Shown here piece by piece: positions 36,496 through 44,352 of a stretch of DNA of 64,000 bases. Location: assembly GCA_021773835.1 (NCBI GenBank), contig JAJFJQ010000070.1, positions 62,001 to 126,000 on the forward strand, read 5' to 3'. This DNA is from Gammaproteobacteria bacterium (GTDB taxonomy: Bacteria > Pseudomonadota > Gammaproteobacteria > Ga0077536). Position numbers and translations under genes: made by a program. A model generated the notes under the pieces. The model was not told where the DNA came from. It did not search any database and saw only the letters and a program-made list of their open reading frames with translations. Position 1 is the stretch's first letter, and the number at the start of each line of letters is the position of its first letter.

Positions 36496-37131
36496 TCACT
36501 TGTCGCCACCGAGCTCGCGTTGAGTGCCGATAAGCGAATCCCGAGTCACCAAGGCCGCAAGTTGTTCCTGCGACCACCCATCCGTACCGGTCGGACGCTC
36601 CGGTAACACCATGTAACGCAGCTCGGCGGTCGAATCGTGCACTCTGACCTCAACACCATCGGATAAATTCACACCGAATTCGGCCAAAACGGCGCGCGGC
36701 TCTCGTACGATCCGCGCACGGTAATTACTGGATTTGTACCACGCGGGTGACATGCCGAGAAGCGAACGCGGATAACATGAACACAAGGTACAAACGATGA
36801 CGTTATGTACCGTCTTTGTATTCTCCATTACCGTAAATTCATACGGCTCAAGATCAAAGCCGAGTTCCCGGATCGCGTTTGCACCGTCATCCAACAAGCG
36901 CGCCTTATAGTCATCGTTTGTCCAAGCATGAGCGACAATTTTGGCACCGTTTTCCGGTGACGCACCCTGCATCGCTGCGATCATTGCCTGTTCTTCATCG
37001 ACGCTGTAATGCCCGGCCTCAATCAATAATTCACGTAGTGCCAGGCCAAGTCGCGCGGCCTCACTAGTGGGCTCTACATGATCTGGTTGAAAGGTGCGCG
37101 CGTGATCATGCTCATGCTCGTTATCTGTCAT
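36496..37131 (-). CDS. Nitrile hydratase alpha subunit, cobalt type
   Basis: The 211-aa catalytic subunit. The metal claw is VCTLCSC at residues 113-119, with the Thr that marks the cobalt rather than iron type; the second and third Cys become sulfinic and sulfenic acids in mature enzymes. Downstream PRSLLGMSPAWYKSSNYRARIVREPRAVLAEFGV and ELRYMVLPERPTGTDGWSQEQLAALVTRDSLIGT are standard. Nitrile hydratase converts nitriles to amides. It overlaps the beta-C gene by 4 bp (ATGA). No amidase or separate activator gene is adjacent. The N-terminus is His-rich. Confidence 0.92.
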   Translation of the reverse strand: MTDNEHEHDHARTFQPDHVEPTSEAARLGLALRELLIEAGHYSVDEEQAMIAAMQGASPENGAKIVAHAWTNDDYKARLLDDGANAIRELGFDLEPYEFTVMENTKTVHNVIVCTLCSCYPRSLLGMSPAWYKSSNYRARIVREPRAVLAEFGVNLSDGVEVRVHDSTAELRYMVLPERPTGTDGWSQEQLAALVTRDSLIGTQRELGGDK

Positions 37132-37415
37132 GTTGCAACCTCCAGCCAGTGTTCAAAGATTTCAATCTCGAGCATGTCTTTCGGTGCGCCACTGTATGAC
37201 CCCCACAACTCAATTTGCGGGATCCGCACTCGATAAACCCGCTGCATCGGTTCACCGGGACCTCGAATATATTTCTCTGGGTCGCCGTGCACGCCACAAA
37301 TGCGTTCGACGGTACCGACTTTCCCTTTCGCATAGGCGGGCACGCGGTGATGCGTCAGCGGCGTTCGATCAGCGATACGTACCCGTTGCCCAGGCTTAAA
37401 CTTGGGCTCGCTCAT
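37128..37415 (-). CDS. Nitrile hydratase beta subunit, C-terminal half (separate gene)
   Basis: This 95-aa product corresponds to the C-terminal SH3-like domain of a normal (about 220 aa) nitrile hydratase beta subunit. It opens with FKPGQRVRIADRTPLTHHRVPAYAKGKVGTVERICG, where the Arg of HHRVP matches the conserved active-site arginine that contacts the alpha sulfenate, and ends LEIEIFEHWLEVAT. It has its own ATG and sits in ATGA overlaps with both neighbours. It is an intact gene rather than a frameshift product, as stop and start are both clean. Confidence 0.87.
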   Translation of the reverse strand: MSEPKFKPGQRVRIADRTPLTHHRVPAYAKGKVGTVERICGVHGDPEKYIRGPGEPMQRVYRVRIPQIELWGSYSGAPKDMLEIEIFEHWLEVAT

Positions 37416-37738
37416 GAACTACTCTCTATTTTTTGCCGGCGCCGAATAGCGTCGATCTTTCCGTCCAGCTCGTCTTGGGTAATCGCCCCACTCGCCAGCA
37501 ACGTACTCGCGAGCGACTTTGCCCAGCGTTCATAGTAGGAGAGCTCGTCATAATCCGTAGGCGCTAGACGTTCAATTCCATGGCGTAGCTCTGCGAAATC
37601 AGTAATTAAACCTTTGGCAAGTGCGAGCCTTACCATCGCGTCGATCTGCCATTCCCAATAGGCGTTGTCGTGCTCGGCGAGATCCACTGGCCCGCCTGTC
37701 CGTCCGCCGACGTCGTGTGGTCCCCATGCTTCACTCAT
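37412..37738 (-). CDS. Nitrile hydratase beta subunit, N-terminal half (separate gene)
   Basis: This 108-aa product corresponds to the helical N-terminal half of the beta subunit: DVGGRTGGP, ELRHGIERLAPTDYDELSYYERWAKSLASTLLASGAITQDEL, with the ERL...YYERW motif and the first active-site arginine region. It is the first gene of the three-gene operon and overlaps the next by ATGA. In some organisms such beta-like proteins also act as metallochaperones, so it may double as activator, which would explain the lack of a separate one. Confidence 0.85.
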   Translation of the reverse strand: MSEAWGPHDVGGRTGGPVDLAEHDNAYWEWQIDAMVRLALAKGLITDFAELRHGIERLAPTDYDELSYYERWAKSLASTLLASGAITQDELDGKIDAIRRRQKIESSS

Positions 37739-39449: not shown

Positions 39450-41714
39450 TTAGCTCGTTTGGCTCGCCGGGCAGGTAATTGTGCCCCGTAGCGCCTCGAG
39501 TTTTGGCTTGAAACCAGCCGGCATAAATTCGCGTCGTGAATCAAGCTCGAACAGTACCTCACATGCTGTCTTCGGCCGGGTCGATTCTGCGCGTATTTGG
39601 GCGCGATGAATCATGCCTTCCCACCATGTATCGCGACGTGGATCGGTTCGATCCGTAATTGTGCGCCATGCCCGATCCGCCTCGACTGGTCGATCCGTCT
39701 GCGCTGCGGCCAACGCAAACAGACGAAAGCCATCCCCAGCCTTTGGGTATGCCTTGCGAAATAATTTTGCGTGGTCGTAGGCGTCCTCAAAGCGTTGAAC
39801 TTCGAGCATAGCCTCGATCATCATGATCTTGAATCGTCGTTCCATCGAAACATCAGCCGTTGCCCCGGGAAGCAACGTCTGCGCCGCTTGTATACGAAAG
39901 CTCGGATCGGCATCGGCGCTTATCGGTGGATAGATCTGCTCAAGCTGCCACACCTGCAATCCGGCTGTCGCAAGTTTGTTAAAAAACCCGAGCAATGCAG
40001 CGCGATCGCCAAGCCGCTCGTAGCATTTTAGTCGCGCCCACAAGATACCGCGTCCCGCGGCAGTATTTAAGTTGCCGGCTTTCTCGGCCTCATCGATGGC
40101 GGCCATCACTGCATGAGGCTCGGAATCGATCAAGGCCCGCATTTGGAACATGATCGCAAGGTTCTCAGAGATATTTCTCTGCTTTTTCGGTAGTTGCTTA
40201 TAGGCTGCGAGCCCTCGTTTTGCCAGTGCCGTTGGCGGCTTTGCATCCGTTTTCCGGATCGCATTGGTGAAGTCACGCGCGACGACGAAAAATCGCGTTT
40301 GTTCCAACGGCCCCCTTAGTTTCCGCGGTGACTTGACCGCATTCAACATGGCATACGCCTTTTTCGAGTTCGTCGTGGTCTGCGCAACGGTCACCCGAGC
40401 ACCGTCGGCATCGCCATCCTCCGGATTAGACTTGAGAAATCGTTCGGCCGCTTTTCTCAATGCCTCGCGCGAACTCGCCGACGGGTTTCCCATACGCGAC
40501 GCGCGCGCGACGTAAGCAAGCTTGGTTGCGGCTTTCCTTATCTGCGGGTCGAGGTTCTTTTTGCGTAGCAGGCGTTCTGCAGTATCCGCGGCGACTTTAT
40601 TCGATTTGATGTTATGCGACGCCAAGGCATAGCGAAAACGAATGTGGTCTAAGTTGAGATCTTTGTACTGTCTTGCTGCGTTAAAAAACCGCTCGTATTG
40701 GTTTGCCGCGGTCCGATCAAACCCGTATATGAATGCATGCTCGGCCTTTACCAAGGGGGTGAAGGGTCCAATGCTGTGACTGTAGAGCTTTTCGTGATAC
40801 TCCACGATAAGCCCGATCAAACGATCATCGACGCGCCGGGCATCGATAATACGACGTATTCGTTCGGCAGCTTCTCCGGCGCTGGTTTCGGCCTCTCGAC
40901 GGGTTTTTGAATTGTGCTTAGGTTGTGAGGCGTGCTGCAACAATGCTAACGCCTCGGCAAGCAGCAGCTGAGATTCCTGCACGTCAATTTTCCCTGCTGG
41001 AGGCGGCCCGGCTACGTTACCGGTTTTTGCGCGCAATATTCGAAGCTGCAGCGAGACCACCTCGAACAACGGGTGGCGCTTATCACCACCTAGTGCCTCC
41101 TCTAGGTTTTCAAATATTTTGAGCGCACGATCGTTCTCCTCCTCCGCCACTGCGATATAGCCAAGGCCAAGCCAACCGCCGTAAACCAGACTCGGACGGA
41201 ACACCTGAACGGAGGTGCCACGAAAACCCTTCTTCGCTTCCCAGATCCACTTCCTTTTTGCCGCCGCGTCTTTGACGGTCTTATACATTTCCAGATCGAC
41301 CCACGCGCCCCAATAGGGAAATGCGGCCAGGGCAAAACTCAAGTCATCCCAACCCACGGAACGATAGAGCGTTTCGAGCGCCGCCTCGTCTTCACCCGCC
41401 GCGGCCTCAAGCGCCTTCACTCTCGCAGTCGTGCGGTCTCGCAGGTTTCGTGTTATCTCGCGCATCGTCGTGAGCTGTGCAACGGTTGCTTTGCCGTCTC
41501 GCACACCATCGATCGTCTGACCTAGCTGTCGCCCGACCGCGGCATATCGACTCGTCGGCGCGTCACCGCTTAAGCTTGACTGTAGCCGTCGCGCCTCGGC
41601 GATCGCCGAAACCGCATTCGCAGGCGCTTTAGCCTTTGCGGCCCAGCCGCTAAAACTACCCAGGGTCAGCAACATCGAAACAAGCGCGACACAAGTAGTT
41701 CTGCCGCGATGCAT
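39450..41714 (-). CDS. Large exported repeat-like protein of the Exb/VWA operon
   Basis: A 754-aa protein with a cleavable signal peptide (VALVSMLLTLGSFSGWA, residues about 9-25) and no further membrane helix, so periplasmic or outer-surface exposed. The body is alpha-helical and TPR-like, with LGYIAVAEEENDRALKIFENLEEALGG, AEHAFIYGFDRTAANQYERFFNAARQYKDLNLDHIRFRYALASHNIKSNKVAADTAERLLRK and similar helix pairs. I recognise no catalytic domain. Its start overlaps the stop of the VWA gene by one base (TAATG), so production is coupled. It is probably the periplasmic client or scaffold driven by the inner-membrane motor encoded upstream. Confidence 0.75.
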   Translation of the reverse strand: MHRGRTTCVALVSMLLTLGSFSGWAAKAKAPANAVSAIAEARRLQSSLSGDAPTSRYAAVGRQLGQTIDGVRDGKATVAQLTTMREITRNLRDRTTARVKALEAAAGEDEAALETLYRSVGWDDLSFALAAFPYWGAWVDLEMYKTVKDAAAKRKWIWEAKKGFRGTSVQVFRPSLVYGGWLGLGYIAVAEEENDRALKIFENLEEALGGDKRHPLFEVVSLQLRILRAKTGNVAGPPPAGKIDVQESQLLLAEALALLQHASQPKHNSKTRREAETSAGEAAERIRRIIDARRVDDRLIGLIVEYHEKLYSHSIGPFTPLVKAEHAFIYGFDRTAANQYERFFNAARQYKDLNLDHIRFRYALASHNIKSNKVAADTAERLLRKKNLDPQIRKAATKLAYVARASRMGNPSASSREALRKAAERFLKSNPEDGDADGARVTVAQTTTNSKKAYAMLNAVKSPRKLRGPLEQTRFFVVARDFTNAIRKTDAKPPTALAKRGLAAYKQLPKKQRNISENLAIMFQMRALIDSEPHAVMAAIDEAEKAGNLNTAAGRGILWARLKCYERLGDRAALLGFFNKLATAGLQVWQLEQIYPPISADADPSFRIQAAQTLLPGATADVSMERRFKIMMIEAMLEVQRFEDAYDHAKLFRKAYPKAGDGFRLFALAAAQTDRPVEADRAWRTITDRTDPRRDTWWEGMIHRAQIRAESTRPKTACEVLFELDSRREFMPAGFKPKLEALRGTITCPASQTS

Positions 41715-42808
41715 TAGATAACCTCTAGCAGCGCGCGCATTTGGTTCGCGAACTGCTCTCCCATTATTAAGGTGATCAAACGCTTGGTAACCTTGACATC
41801 ACCATGCAAAGTGCCAGCGTCGCCCTGCCCTGCTTCCGCCATTTCCAGAAATTCCCGCATGGGTTTATTGCGGTAAATTGCCCGGTTAATCGGACGCCCT
41901 TCGCGGATCTCTATCAGTCCGGGATTCGCGCTCGGGCTTACGTCTAAAGTCGATAAGGTCCCGCCGTTAGCAGTAAAGCGATGGATCCGTCCAAGCAGAG
42001 TATCGAAACTTTCTTCATGCGGCGGCGCGTCACCGACAAGAATGATGATCCTGCGTGCGCCGACCCGCCAACTTTGGTCAACGCCGGCGGCGATGCCGGC
42101 ATCGATGTCTTCCCAAATATCGCCGCCGCCTGCCGCTTGTAGTGGATCCAGGAAGCGGCGAAGCTTAGCCGTGCTGAAGGTCAAGGACTCAGATCGTACG
42201 AGAAACTCCTCGTCTTGATCACGAAACGCGACAAATCCAAAGCGTGCTGCCGGTACCAAGGTCCGCACTGTATGCACAATATCGTAGATACGATCTTTAA
42301 TTTCGTCGATGGCCCATCCCATTGAACCCGTCGCATCAATCACAAAAACGACATCTAAGCCATTGTTGCGCAGGCCGGAAATGTAACTGGCAAATCGATT
42401 ATTGGAATTGCCGAGCGCATTGCCGATCCCGGCACCAAAGCCGGCGGTGCCGAAACCCTCACCGAGCGGCATCGCGGACATCGGATTGGGTAGATCGAAA
42501 CCGGTGGTACCGCCGGAATCAGCCCGTAGCGCGAGTGGTGCATCCGGTGGTGGTGGCGCGACCGCCTGCGGCGCGATTAGCGTTTCTGGCGGTTCTAATT
42601 CAAATTCCTCCTCAAACTCCAAAACGTCTTCGGGTTTCGGACGCTCGAGAGGCTCAGGTGGCGGCTCCGCCACCGCAATGTTGATCTCTATCTCCTCTGC
42701 CGTATCGATCGGGTTATCGATGTCTTGCCCGATCCGCCACGAGATTATCACGTGGACGATCAGGGAAATCGCGAACAATACCGACCACGTCGTAAACCGT
42801 TTCATCAA
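41714..42808 (-). CDS. TonB-like tethered von Willebrand factor A protein
   Basis: A 364-aa protein. Residues 7-23 are one N-terminal membrane helix, 48-90 are Pro/Glu-rich like the TonB spacer (EPPPEPLERPKPED... and APPPPDAP), 118-136 are Gly-rich, and from about 151 a VWA domain follows. The MIDAS motif is D158-A-T160-G-S162, GGGDIWED lies at 227-234 and VGDAPPHE at 258-264, so metal binding looks intact. A TonB-like tether ending in VWA instead of the TonB C-terminal domain implies that the motor transmits force to, or senses, a VWA ligand in the periplasm. It is 14 bp after the second exbD-like gene. Confidence 0.82.
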   Translation of the reverse strand: MMKRFTTWSVLFAISLIVHVIISWRIGQDIDNPIDTAEEIEINIAVAEPPPEPLERPKPEDVLEFEEEFELEPPETLIAPQAVAPPPPDAPLALRADSGGTTGFDLPNPMSAMPLGEGFGTAGFGAGIGNALGNSNNRFASYISGLRNNGLDVVFVIDATGSMGWAIDEIKDRIYDIVHTVRTLVPAARFGFVAFRDQDEEFLVRSESLTFSTAKLRRFLDPLQAAGGGDIWEDIDAGIAAGVDQSWRVGARRIIILVGDAPPHEESFDTLLGRIHRFTANGGTLSTLDVSPSANPGLIEIREGRPINRAIYRNKPMREFLEMAEAGQGDAGTLHGDVKVTKRLITLIMGEQFANQMRALLEVI

Positions 42809-42822
42809 TCCGCTTCCGCCGC

Positions 42823-43248
42823 CTACCTTTTCTTCAAGGTCAACAGCGTTGCCCGATCGATCCCAATCTTTGACAGGGCCCCGACCGTTTGTGCAACCAA
42901 CACGACGTCGGTTTGAGCGTCAGCTGAGATTTGCACCACCTGATCTTTGAATACGCCGGATAGCTCGTTTTCAATTTGCTCGATACTAATGGTTCTCCCT
43001 CGATAGCGAATTTTTCCATCTACCGTGATCGCAATCTCCAAAACATCCGGGCTCGGTGAGACCGACGCGACTGAATCCGGCGGGGTAACCTCTAAATCGA
43101 TGTGTAAATTACCGGCGACCATAAAGTACAACAGCAACAAGAATACGATGTTGATCATCGGCACCACATTTTCCGGGCGCCGTTCGCGCGATGCACTGTG
43201 CTGCCCCTTGCCGATTGAGCCAAAGCCGCGGGTTTTCGGGGTCAACAT
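42823..43248 (-). CDS. ExbD/TolR-like protein lacking the proton-carrying Asp
   Basis: A 141-aa single-helix protein of the ExbD/TolR family (cytoplasmic N-terminus, helix about residues 28-47, periplasmic C-terminal domain). The helix reads VVPMINIVFLLLLYFMV: at position 33, where ExbD/TolR/MotB proteins carry the Asp essential for proton flow, this one has Asn (codon AAC). The periplasmic part (VLEIAITVDGKIRYRGRTISIEQIENEL, VVQISADAQTDVVLVAQTVGALSKIGID) is otherwise well formed. It lies 15 bp after a normal ExbD paralogue. Confidence 0.85.
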   Translation of the reverse strand: MLTPKTRGFGSIGKGQHSASRERRPENVVPMINIVFLLLLYFMVAGNLHIDLEVTPPDSVASVSPSPDVLEIAITVDGKIRYRGRTISIEQIENELSGVFKDQVVQISADAQTDVVLVAQTVGALSKIGIDRATLLTLKKR

Positions 43249-43263
43249 ATCGGCTTCTCGATC

Positions 43264-43671
43264 CTATTTATCAAACTGTTGGGCTTCGGTTATCGCGATG
43301 TTGACCAACCCACGCCCGTGCAGAATATCAATCACAGAAACGGCACGTTGCAGTGGTACACCTGGGTCCGAGGCCACCACAATCGGCGATTCGGCGGAAG
43401 GATTGAGATCTCGAAGCACCTCCTCCATTTGATCCAAGGGATAGCGTCCCTTATTGATCCAAACGCTCTCGTCGGCGTGCAACTCGATCACAACTGGCAT
43501 TGATTTCGCACCCGGGTCACGCTGCCCGCCGCCCTGTTGCGCAAGGTCCATGACATAAGGTCTGAGGAAATCACTTTCCAACATAAAAAATATCAACAAA
43601 ATGAACACAACGTCGATCAACGGCGTCAATGACAATCGCGATGCACGACGTCTGCGTTCCAGCGTGATCAT
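43264..43671 (-). CDS. ExbD/TolR-like protein with intact proton-carrying Asp
   Basis: A 135-aa ExbD/TolR-type subunit. The N-terminal basic segment (ERRRRASRLSLTPLIDVVFILLIFFML) contains Asp20 in the LTPLIDVVF motif, the residue that carries protons through the ExbB/TolQ pore. The periplasmic domain follows (MPVVIELHADESVWINKGRYPLDQMEEVLRDL, PIVVASDPGVPLQRAVSVIDILHGRGLVNIAI). It is 12 bp downstream of the ExbB-like gene and would form the active half of a pair with the Asn-bearing paralogue. Confidence 0.9.
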   Translation of the reverse strand: MITLERRRRASRLSLTPLIDVVFILLIFFMLESDFLRPYVMDLAQQGGGQRDPGAKSMPVVIELHADESVWINKGRYPLDQMEEVLRDLNPSAESPIVVASDPGVPLQRAVSVIDILHGRGLVNIAITEAQQFDK

Positions 43672-43683
43672 CTTCGGCCCCGA

Positions 43684-44352
43684 TTACGACTGACTTTTCG
43701 AGCCAACGTTGATGGTCATGATCCGGGTCAATAAATCCGAGACCGTTGCCGTCGCATTATCCAATCGCGTTTCGAGCCACGCATGGACAACCGTGAACGG
43801 GATGGCAATGGACAAGCCTACTGCAGTCGTTAACAAGGCCTCCCATATTCCGCCGGCCAAGGCAGTCGAATCCTTGTCCATTCCGGCGCTCGACTCTAGC
43901 CCTCGAAAGGCCTCGATCATACCGAGTACCGTACCGAGCAACCCTAATACCGGCGCTAGGTAGTAGATCAATTCCAACGGCCGCATGTATCTCCCATACG
44001 GATACAAAAAATTCGTGGCACGTCGGCCCAACTCTTCGCGTAACTCTTCAGTGTCGGGGGTATTACGATGCTCGAGACCGAATTGTAGGATTGGACCCAG
44101 GCCAATCGGAGATTTTTCGAGCATTTCCATACATTTCGCCGGCGCCGTCGCCCACTTATCAAGGGCCTTGTGCAGCGTCGCGAAACGGCCCGGACTGAGA
44201 CTGGAAAACTGAAAAAACTTGTACAGGGCAATTGCAAATCCGAAAACCGAAATGATCATGAGCACCGCGACCACCGGCCCGCCCAATTCGAGTAGTGCTT
44301 TGGCCGAAGTCCAGATATCGCCATGTATTTGATTTATTGGTGGTTCTTCCAT
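43684..44352 (-). CDS. MotA/TolQ/ExbB-type proton channel protein
   Basis: A 222-aa inner-membrane protein with three helices (residues about 22-46, 127-150 and 170-192). The family blocks LIYYLAPVLGLLGTVLGMIEAFRGLE and IWEALLTTAVGLSIAIPFTVVHAW are clear. It should assemble as a pentamer around an ExbD dimer. It is the first gene of the five-gene leftward operon. There is no tolA, pal, tonB or receptor gene nearby, so it is not a standard Tol or Ton locus. Confidence 0.92.
   Translation of the reverse strand: MEEPPINQIHGDIWTSAKALLELGGPVVAVLMIISVFGFAIALYKFFQFSSLSPGRFATLHKALDKWATAPAKCMEMLEKSPIGLGPILQFGLEHRNTPDTEELREELGRRATNFLYPYGRYMRPLELIYYLAPVLGLLGTVLGMIEAFRGLESSAGMDKDSTALAGGIWEALLTTAVGLSIAIPFTVVHAWLETRLDNATATVSDLLTRIMTINVGSKSQS

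Follow-up and report, generated by a model that had tools for sequence, protein, structure and literature searches.

A five-gene proton-motor operon with a VWA force-transducer candidate, an Asp/Asn pair of ExbD subunits and, in many relatives, linked transporter genes

A stretch of 64,000 nucleotides from a gammaproteobacterial genome (GenBank assembly GCA_021773835.1, contig JAJFJQ010000070.1, positions 62,001 to 126,000; hereafter the window) carries an operon encoding an ExbB protein, two unlike ExbD proteins, a membrane-tethered VWA protein and a large exported protein of TPR-like fold. Computation established the gene set and its order, the conserved residues and folds of the products, the linkage to neighbouring genes and the co-occurrence across genomes. 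One ExbD carries the usual transmembrane Asp and the other an Asn, and in many relatives the motor genes are surrounded by the four gene families that make up AmeABCD, a monoterpene transporter of Castellaniella defragrans (PMC6394551). A tentative reading, to which we give a probability of about 0.48, is that the motor energises an AmeABCD-kind transporter of hydrophobic or lipid-like compounds through the VWA transducer.

A preliminary description of the operon had considered the system undescribed, a view overtaken by print, as vWA force transducers encoded beside tolQ, two tolR and TPR genes were reported as a class from several phyla, with function unknown (Williams-Jones et al. 2025, PMC12204202). 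What is added here is the constancy of a TonB/TolA-type Ser-x3-His in the transmembrane helix of the VWA protein, the Asn-bearing second ExbD, which the preliminary description had missed, and the transporter linkage; section 8 of PMC12204202 mentions neither an Asn-bearing second ExbD nor DUF1302, DUF1329 or RND neighbours. Literature searches found no earlier link, and no paper turned up that combined DUF1329 with ExbD, or ExbD with VWA domain, TPR and operon.

Products of the operon and their conserved residues

The operon genes and the gene that follows them in the window are as follows:

43684..44352, minus strand: exbB/tolQ-like proton-channel subunit, 222 amino acids (aa); PF01618 (MotA_ExbB) at 2e-25
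43264..43671, minus strand: exbD1, 135 aa; PF02472 (ExbD) at 4e-19; transmembrane aspartate D20 in the motif PLIDVVF
42823..43248, minus strand: exbD2, 141 aa; PF02472 at 2e-16; asparagine N33 at the transmembrane Asp site in the motif PMINIVF
41714..42805 (ATG start, 363 aa) or 41714..42808 (TTG start, 364 aa), minus strand: VWA force-transducer candidate; PF25106 (VWA_4) at 2e-10
39450..41714, minus strand: large exported TPR-like superhelical protein, 754 aa, with an N-terminal signal-like segment
37871..39430, minus strand: acyl-CoA ligase (AMP-binding) gene; PF00501 at 4e-58; 19 bp downstream of the 754-aa open reading frame (ORF)

The positions and spacing of the five genes were confirmed on the DNA: gaps of 12, 15 and 14 bp (17 bp to the ATG start) separate the genes from exbB to the VWA gene, which is joined to the last gene by a TAATG overlap. 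The five adjoining genes agree with the single transcription unit proposed earlier, although its end does not, since the gap of 19 bp indicates that the unit probably extends into the acyl-CoA ligase gene.

The channel threonines T141 and T176 of ExbB were invariant in all 39 aligned sequences, and the transmembrane Asp20 of ExbD1 was found in 40 of 40 and Asn33 of ExbD2, at the equivalent motif position, in all 40 linked copies, the counts including the window and near-identical rows such as L060, L063 and L064. In a survey of ExbD-like ORFs from the fetched motor loci, this system included, 81 unique sequences were collected, four of which had no readable motif and were omitted; 70 of the remaining 77 carried Asp and seven Asn. 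Five of the seven were linked ExbD2 proteins of this system (from the window's own genome, G001, alphaproteobacterial G102, Haliea G103 and T64, G104), and a sixth, from an unlinked motor of a deltaproteobacterial genome (L211), was assigned by the analysis to this system. The seventh belonged to an unrelated deltaproteobacterial ExbB-ExbD-ExbD set (L212, G097:C70, 7195-8867), whose two ExbDs also differ, with Asn (TTFLNLMVV) in one of them and Asp in its partner; such a split may thus have more than one origin. Asp was present in both members of the Archangium ExbD pairs L216 and L217, as well as in pairs L207-L209, from the planctomycete/Gemmatimonad genomes that hold the VWA loci L115-L117, and in L210 from a fourth such genome; the split is thus no general feature of VWA transducers.

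The one-to-one pairing of exbD1 and exbD2 suggests that the two products would most likely form the axle of the motor as a heterodimer, in which only ExbD1 supplies a protonatable Asp. A rather doubtful alternative, which concerns this step only, is that the axle consists of ExbD1 alone, as a homodimer, while ExbD2 with its Asn serves outside the motor proper for regulation or anchoring. Asn is neutral, D-to-N replacement at the equivalent site inactivates ExbD and TolR of Escherichia coli, and conserved residues in the periplasmic part of ExbD2 (P56, P57, D110 and T137) would also suit such a role, whereas the one-to-one linkage and the invariant F36, L37 and L38 of the transmembrane motif around the Asn suggest that ExbD2 lies within the pore.

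The VWA protein consists of a transmembrane helix (residues 2-30), a Pro- and acid-rich linker (about 31-134), the VWA domain (about 150-335) and C-terminal helices. A Ser14-x3-His18 pair of the TonB/TolA type was present in the transmembrane helix of all 50 aligned VWA proteins including that of the window, which supports docking of the VWA protein on the motor, as judged from sequence conservation; three of the 50 are planctomycete/Gemmatimonad proteins without a linked motor (L115-L117), near which no ExbB or ExbD was detected within the fetched flank by the profiles of this system. Conservation of the Leu/Ser half of the SHLS motif was not seen when the alignment was inspected by eye. The metal-ion-dependent adhesion site (MIDAS) residues D157, T159 and D196 were identical in all 50 sequences, and position 161 was Ser in 47 and Thr in three, and position 259 Asp in 49 and Asn in one. 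The AlphaFold model (mean predicted local distance difference test score, pLDDT, 71.8) showed one transmembrane helix, a disordered linker and a VWA domain; residues 30-134 of the linker contain 18 Pro and 21 Asp or Glu among 105 positions, mostly with pLDDT below 55, and Foldseek matched the domain to solved VWA domains of integrin, ANTXR and BatB. Pfam and NCBIfam found no TonB C-terminal domain in the protein, so that membership in the Ton system was rejected. The transmembrane Ser/His, the linker and VWA domain in place of a TonB or TolA C-terminal domain and the neighbouring genes all place the protein in the published vWA force-transducer class. The second vWA class described in the same paper (PMC12204202), with a transpore helix, an Asp in the VWA transmembrane segment and no tolR, was set aside, as the protein here has Ser/His, lacks Asp between residues 5 and 25 and is encoded beside two exbD genes.

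The 754-aa protein matched no Pfam or NCBIfam family. Its AlphaFold model was an all-helical superhelix (mean pLDDT 88.6), and TPR superhelices were among the best matches in a search of solved structures, with VIA-align Z up to 15.6 at a root-mean-square deviation of 13 A; because such scores are common for helical repeats, the model qualifies the protein as "TPR-like" and no more. A single chimera found by a PDB sequence search with the large-protein profile (E 0.03) was taken as a chance match. The protein occurred in 30 of 96 searched genomes including its own, that is, in 30 of 36 genomes of its family and in none of 60 from other families of the class.

Conservation and spread of the gene set

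The co-occurrence check proposed with the preliminary description showed that the gene order recurs, both within the family of the window's organism and beyond it, and the arrangement is not due to chance; the ExbB, the two ExbDs, the Pro-rich tether with its terminal VWA domain and MIDAS residues and the exported helical-repeat protein are conserved as a set. All five genes occurred in the same order in 20 of 29 family neighbourhoods (28 genomes), although the last gene was cut by a contig end in three of these (L067, L068 and L069) and split into two frames in L043. The latter locus (G003:C238, 10183-12781) belongs to the closest relative, and its split TPR-like gene reflects a frameshift or an assembly error. 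Five of the other nine neighbourhoods (L045, L049, L055, L057 and L059) were cut by contig ends before the set was complete, and the remaining four (L041, L056, L062 and L065) have the VWA and large genes apart from motor genes, as does deltaproteobacterial L104 outside the family. Homologues that are usually separated, the result that would have spoken against the preliminary description, were not found. Flanks were unequal in length, contig ends cut many loci, and one genome with the large protein (G034) lay outside the fetched neighbourhoods.

Beyond the family, five genes in order were found at 18 loci, eight of them gammaproteobacterial (L087, L090, L092, L093, L094, L096, L100, recorded as Porticoccaceae, and L102, recorded as Haliea) and ten alphaproteobacterial (L105-L114, from Rhodobiaceae, the PS1 clade and unplaced records). 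Of 476 VWA relatives in a scan of named genomes, 80 were kept, and 42 of these (L118-L159) matched over the VWA domain; the profiles of this system detected no ExbD at these 42 loci and a weak ExbB at L119 alone. Among 369 sampled genomes of the class, 21 matched the VWA profile at 1e-20, five over the full length (G000, which is the window's genome, G011, G012, G018 and G172) and the others over the VWA domain. A search of a plasmid collection with the VWA protein returned 15 records, all below 60% identity (29.5-37% in the rows) and none covering 80% of the query. In G407, one of the class genomes matched over the VWA domain only, a set of different order, VWA-ExbB-ExbD-ExbD, with Asp in both ExbDs (L298, G407:C65, 3188-9642), directly follows an AcrB-type RND gene (ACR_tran) and is another motor-VWA set beside an RND pump.

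The window's genome (6.1 Mb in 74 contigs) has 12 MotA/ExbB and six ExbD matches, among which a separate TolQ/TolR pair scores above the TIGRFAM equivalog cut-offs, so that the five-gene motor is an additional one. A Tol-Pal-like role in envelope maintenance, in which force would be applied to a peptidoglycan- or outer-membrane-bound ligand for constriction or lipid balance, appears improbable in view of this separate pair and of the narrow spread of the full-length transducer, and Pfam detected none of the Pal, TolB and TolA domains in the five products. It is favoured by the NCBIfam results, in which TolR was the best match of both ExbDs and TolQ that of ExbB, and by the TPR protein and Pro-rich transducer, which recall CpoB and TolA. 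Those matches fell far under the equivalog cut-offs (tolQ, 55 against 221 bits; tolR, 45 and 40 against 127 bits; the exbB equivalog was likewise far under its limit), which together with the missing Pal and TolB domains led to rejection of Tol-Pal membership as such. A defence (Zorya) reading was also rejected, since ExbB gave only weak ZorA matches of 18 and 16 bits and the other four products gave none.

Transporter genes linked to the motor

Neighbour families were defined by clustering of adjacent genes, with Pfam run on representatives, and scored at 51 loci (the window, 29 family loci, 19 others with a VWA gene and two unlinked motors), a score above 100 being required. The profiles were built from the loci that they score, and the independent check consists of Pfam on chosen members and a genome-wide Pfam search for DUF1329. 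One or more of the families DUF1302, DUF1329, YCF48 and MMPL occurred at 33 of the 51 loci, namely 27 of 30 in the family and six others (L090, L096, L100, L102, L104 and L297). The common co-directional row in relatives is MMPL/RND - YCF48-like - DUF1302 - exbB - exbD1 - exbD2 - VWA - TPR - (acyl-CoA ligase) - (CobW) - DUF1329, and all 83 linked ORFs of the four families lie on the strand of the motor; none of 29 other ExbB or ExbD motor regions, taken as controls, carries any of them. All four families occurred within the fetched stretch at nine of the 51 loci (L044, L046, L047, L048, L051, L054, L061, L065 and L297), as well as on the Haliea contig once its separately found RND gene is counted. 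The preliminary description had noted that no receptor exists at the locus, which holds for the window and not for the many relatives with transporter genes. L104 contributed to the RND and YCF48 profiles, so that its scores there are inflated; with an RND alignment made without it, its genome gave no match at 1e-100, and it has genes of these families and not the linked RND subfamily. The motor-linked DUF1302 proteins are divergent: the four that were scored reached 76-93 bits, compared with 556 bits for an unlinked Ame-type copy of the window's genome. The acyl-CoA ligase is a neighbour at 13 of the 51 loci, and acyl-CoA dehydrogenase genes lie upstream at 12 loci (nine alphaproteobacterial and three gammaproteobacterial; Pfam was run on two).

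Co-occurrence across genomes points in the same direction. The motor-linked RND subfamily (above 1000 bits, a limit chosen once the scores were seen to drop from 1097 to 495 bits) was present in all five class genomes with a full-length VWA transducer and in one of the 364 without (G073), and the motor-linked DUF1329 subfamily in four of the five and again in G073 alone among the 364. Fisher tests gave 1e-10 for RND and 3e-8 for DUF1329, values that ignore kinship, four of the five positive genomes belonging to one family. The RND alignment holds rows from G012 and G172 among the six matched class genomes; the DUF1329 alignment has rows from G012 among the five matched class genomes and from six of the eight matched system-holding genomes. 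Those eight come from 23 genomes picked for holding the system, 13 of which had the RND subfamily at 1e-100, nine of them above 1000 bits. DUF1329 in the broad Pfam sense was present in 15 of 15 searched system-holding genomes, including five alphaproteobacterial genomes of 1.6-1.7 Mb, often as another subfamily. Alphaproteobacterial G102 has an RND-DUF1329-YCF48-DUF1302-DUF1329 row without a motor, on a contig other than that of its motor, and the contig of Haliea G103 shows this row with the motor inside (RND - DUF1329/YCF48 - DUF1302 - five motor genes - DUF1329); T64 (G104) has DUF1329 beside the motor and RND-DUF1329-YCF48-DUF1302 on another contig.

Several observations weigh against a motor for an AmeABCD-kind transporter. 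None of the four families was found in the window between 33001 and 51000 or among 10 large ORFs elsewhere in it. The 18 loci without transporter families comprise the window, L041, L043, L087, L092, L093, all ten alphaproteobacterial loci (0 of 10) and the unlinked motors L211 and L240; L087, L092 and L093 have unrelated neighbours and only distant RND matches of 451-484 bits, while L240 has MMPL genes on both sides under the score limit, the downstream one confirmed by Pfam. The linked loci come mostly from one family (27 of 33) and are hence not independent. Neither the linked DUF1329 nor the linked RND subfamily was present at the limits used in nine of the ten alphaproteobacterial genomes (G102 being the tenth), and the window's genome and G003 of the same genus gave no match to the linked DUF1329 subfamily at 1e-60. 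The ExbD2 of the unlinked motor in G016 (L240) carries Asp, and G008 and G012, in which VWA and TPR genes lie within the transporter cluster, showed no Asn-type ExbD2 among the matches read. Finally, AmeABCD is described in passages of PMC6394551 as a four-gene cassette that lacks a motor, and the proton gradient should already drive the RND pump of that cassette.

These observations bear on a second explanation, in which the operon is a general motor of the Williams-Jones vWA class that acts on some other envelope or surface partner (gliding-like movement, adhesion or outer-membrane remodelling), the transporter genes being neighbours only because they are regulated or transferred together. 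Binding of proteins is common among VWA domains, nine of ten alphaproteobacterial genomes and also G000 and G003 of the window's genus hold the operon without the linked DUF1329 subfamily, and section 8 of PMC12204202 names no transporter linkage for the class from several phyla. The same four families on the same strand for every linked ORF, none at the control loci, and the co-occurrence of subfamilies across separate families and in one alphaproteobacterium argue against it, and it is considered unlikely. The adhesion, surface-assembly or cell-wall role suggested in the preliminary description likewise finds no backing in the neighbouring genes of relatives, which point to transport of hydrophobic compounds.

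Within the window's genome, an RND protein of 1158 bits is encoded elsewhere, with no other partner in the 18 kb fetched there, and a complete Ame-type DUF1302-DUF1329-YCF48-MMPL cluster of another subfamily lies on the same contig about 50 kb from the operon (L300, G000:C67, 6318-13162). Because partner genes are not adjacent to the operon there, the proposed motor must in this genome act in trans on another such transporter or have been re-purposed. The genome has 17 DUF1329 matches, hinting at a hydrophobe-degrading life. Around the operon, a cysteine synthase gene lies upstream of exbB at a distance of 367 bp, and past the ligase gene, at 36496-37738, there are three short genes that we take to resemble the alpha subunit of a nitrile hydratase, with a CTLCSC motif, and fragments like its beta subunit; a promoter and terminator scan of the locus gave fewer matches than shuffled sequence. 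In G001, L041 (G001:C324, 10513-13862) is a second VWA and TPR-like pair, with no motor genes in about 10 kb upstream and a contig end soon downstream, which may be an orphan transducer sharing the motor of the complete five-gene set L042 of the same genome.

Proposed mechanism and relation to known systems

If the motor does energise such a transporter, it would be a proton-driven motor of the ExbBD/TolQR (5:2) type, with the VWA protein as a side-bound transducer that sits on the ExbB pentamer by its transmembrane Ser/His and is moved as ExbD rotates, by analogy with ExbBD-TonB and TolQRA. The Pro- and acid-rich linker would cross the periplasm and the VWA domain would grip a metal-coordinated partner, while the TPR-like protein may be a periplasmic adaptor or scaffold, comparable to TtpD2, which the TonB2 system requires (PMC6957404). 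Force would then pass to a tetrapartite transporter consisting of an HAE3/MMPL RND pump, a YCF48-like propeller, a DUF1302 outer-membrane barrel and a DUF1329 LolA-like carrier, much as TonB energises an outer-membrane receptor. The substrate class and the target are suggested by the neighbouring genes, and the direction of transport could be either way: export was argued for Ame (PMC6394551), whereas the acyl-CoA ligase and dehydrogenase neighbours would fit uptake and catabolism. A more far-reaching and somewhat speculative proposal starts from an obligately asymmetric rotor, in which one helix has Asp and the other Asn, so that each axle would have a single proton site and need five rather than ten protons per turn. 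With the VWA domain as its hand and the TPR protein as scaffold, this rotor would pull on a hydrophobe machine of DUF1302, DUF1329 and RND proteins, and a third energised process across the envelope would join those of Ton and Tol.

Similar to the published vWA class, the system has a transmembrane Ser/His, a Pro-rich or disordered linker, a C-terminal VWA domain, a TolQ-like gene, paired unlike TolR-like genes and a TPR gene; unlike the class as described in PMC12204202, its TPR-like gene lies downstream, Asn stands in place of Asp in the second ExbD, and its loci are tied to DUF1302, DUF1329, YCF48 and RND genes. The Vibrio TonB2 operon (TtpB2, TtpC2, ExbB2, ExbD2, TonB2 and TtpD2) also combines a motor, a transducer with a transmembrane helix and Pro linker, and a TPR protein as last gene, which is essential in Vibrio vulnificus (passages of PMC6957404); in contrast, the operon here lacks TtpC and a TonB C-terminal domain, its two ExbDs are unlike, and no TonB-dependent receptor is encoded at the locus. 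With AmeABCD, whose four parts are DUF1302, DUF1329, YCF48-like/COG4447 and an HAE3 RND pump, it shares the families that surround the motor genes in many relatives, all four together in some of these and not at the window locus, whereas the four-gene cassette as described has no motor and the motor-linked subfamilies are divergent. Deletion of Ame lowered monoterpene tolerance and increased Nile Red accumulation in cells treated with carbonyl cyanide m-chlorophenyl hydrazone (CCCP) (PMC6394551), and a DUF1302/DUF1329 pair is needed by Pseudomonas putida on Tween 20, as reported in passages of PMC10866462.

The AglRQS gliding motor of Myxococcus likewise has one TolQ-like and two TolR-like subunits, a count equal to that found here (passages of PMC3169522), and the VWA adhesin CglB of Myxococcus (from a title cited in PMC12204202) and TPR proteins could extend the likeness to an Agl/Glt-type motor for motility or surface transport. 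AglQ and AglS are, however, both said to carry the conserved Asp (passages of PMC9389320), whereas ExbD2 here has Asn. The paired Archangium ExbDs L216 and L217 differ from it in the same way. CglB is a separate outer-membrane lipoprotein, unlike the VWA domain here, which is fused to a TonB-like tether, and an Agl/Glt-type motor is regarded as very improbable.

The linkage to transporter genes offers a concrete and testable function for a vWA transducer class that was published in 2025 without one. If the proposed energising of an AmeABCD-kind transporter is true, it would help to explain what powers HAE3/DUF1302/DUF1329 systems at the outer membrane, such as those of a monoterpene degrader or those connected with growth on Tween 20. 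In addition, the conserved Asp/Asn pair would provide a natural single-site 5:2 motor, which should be useful for studying the coupling of proton passage to rotation in ExbBD, TolQR and MotAB.

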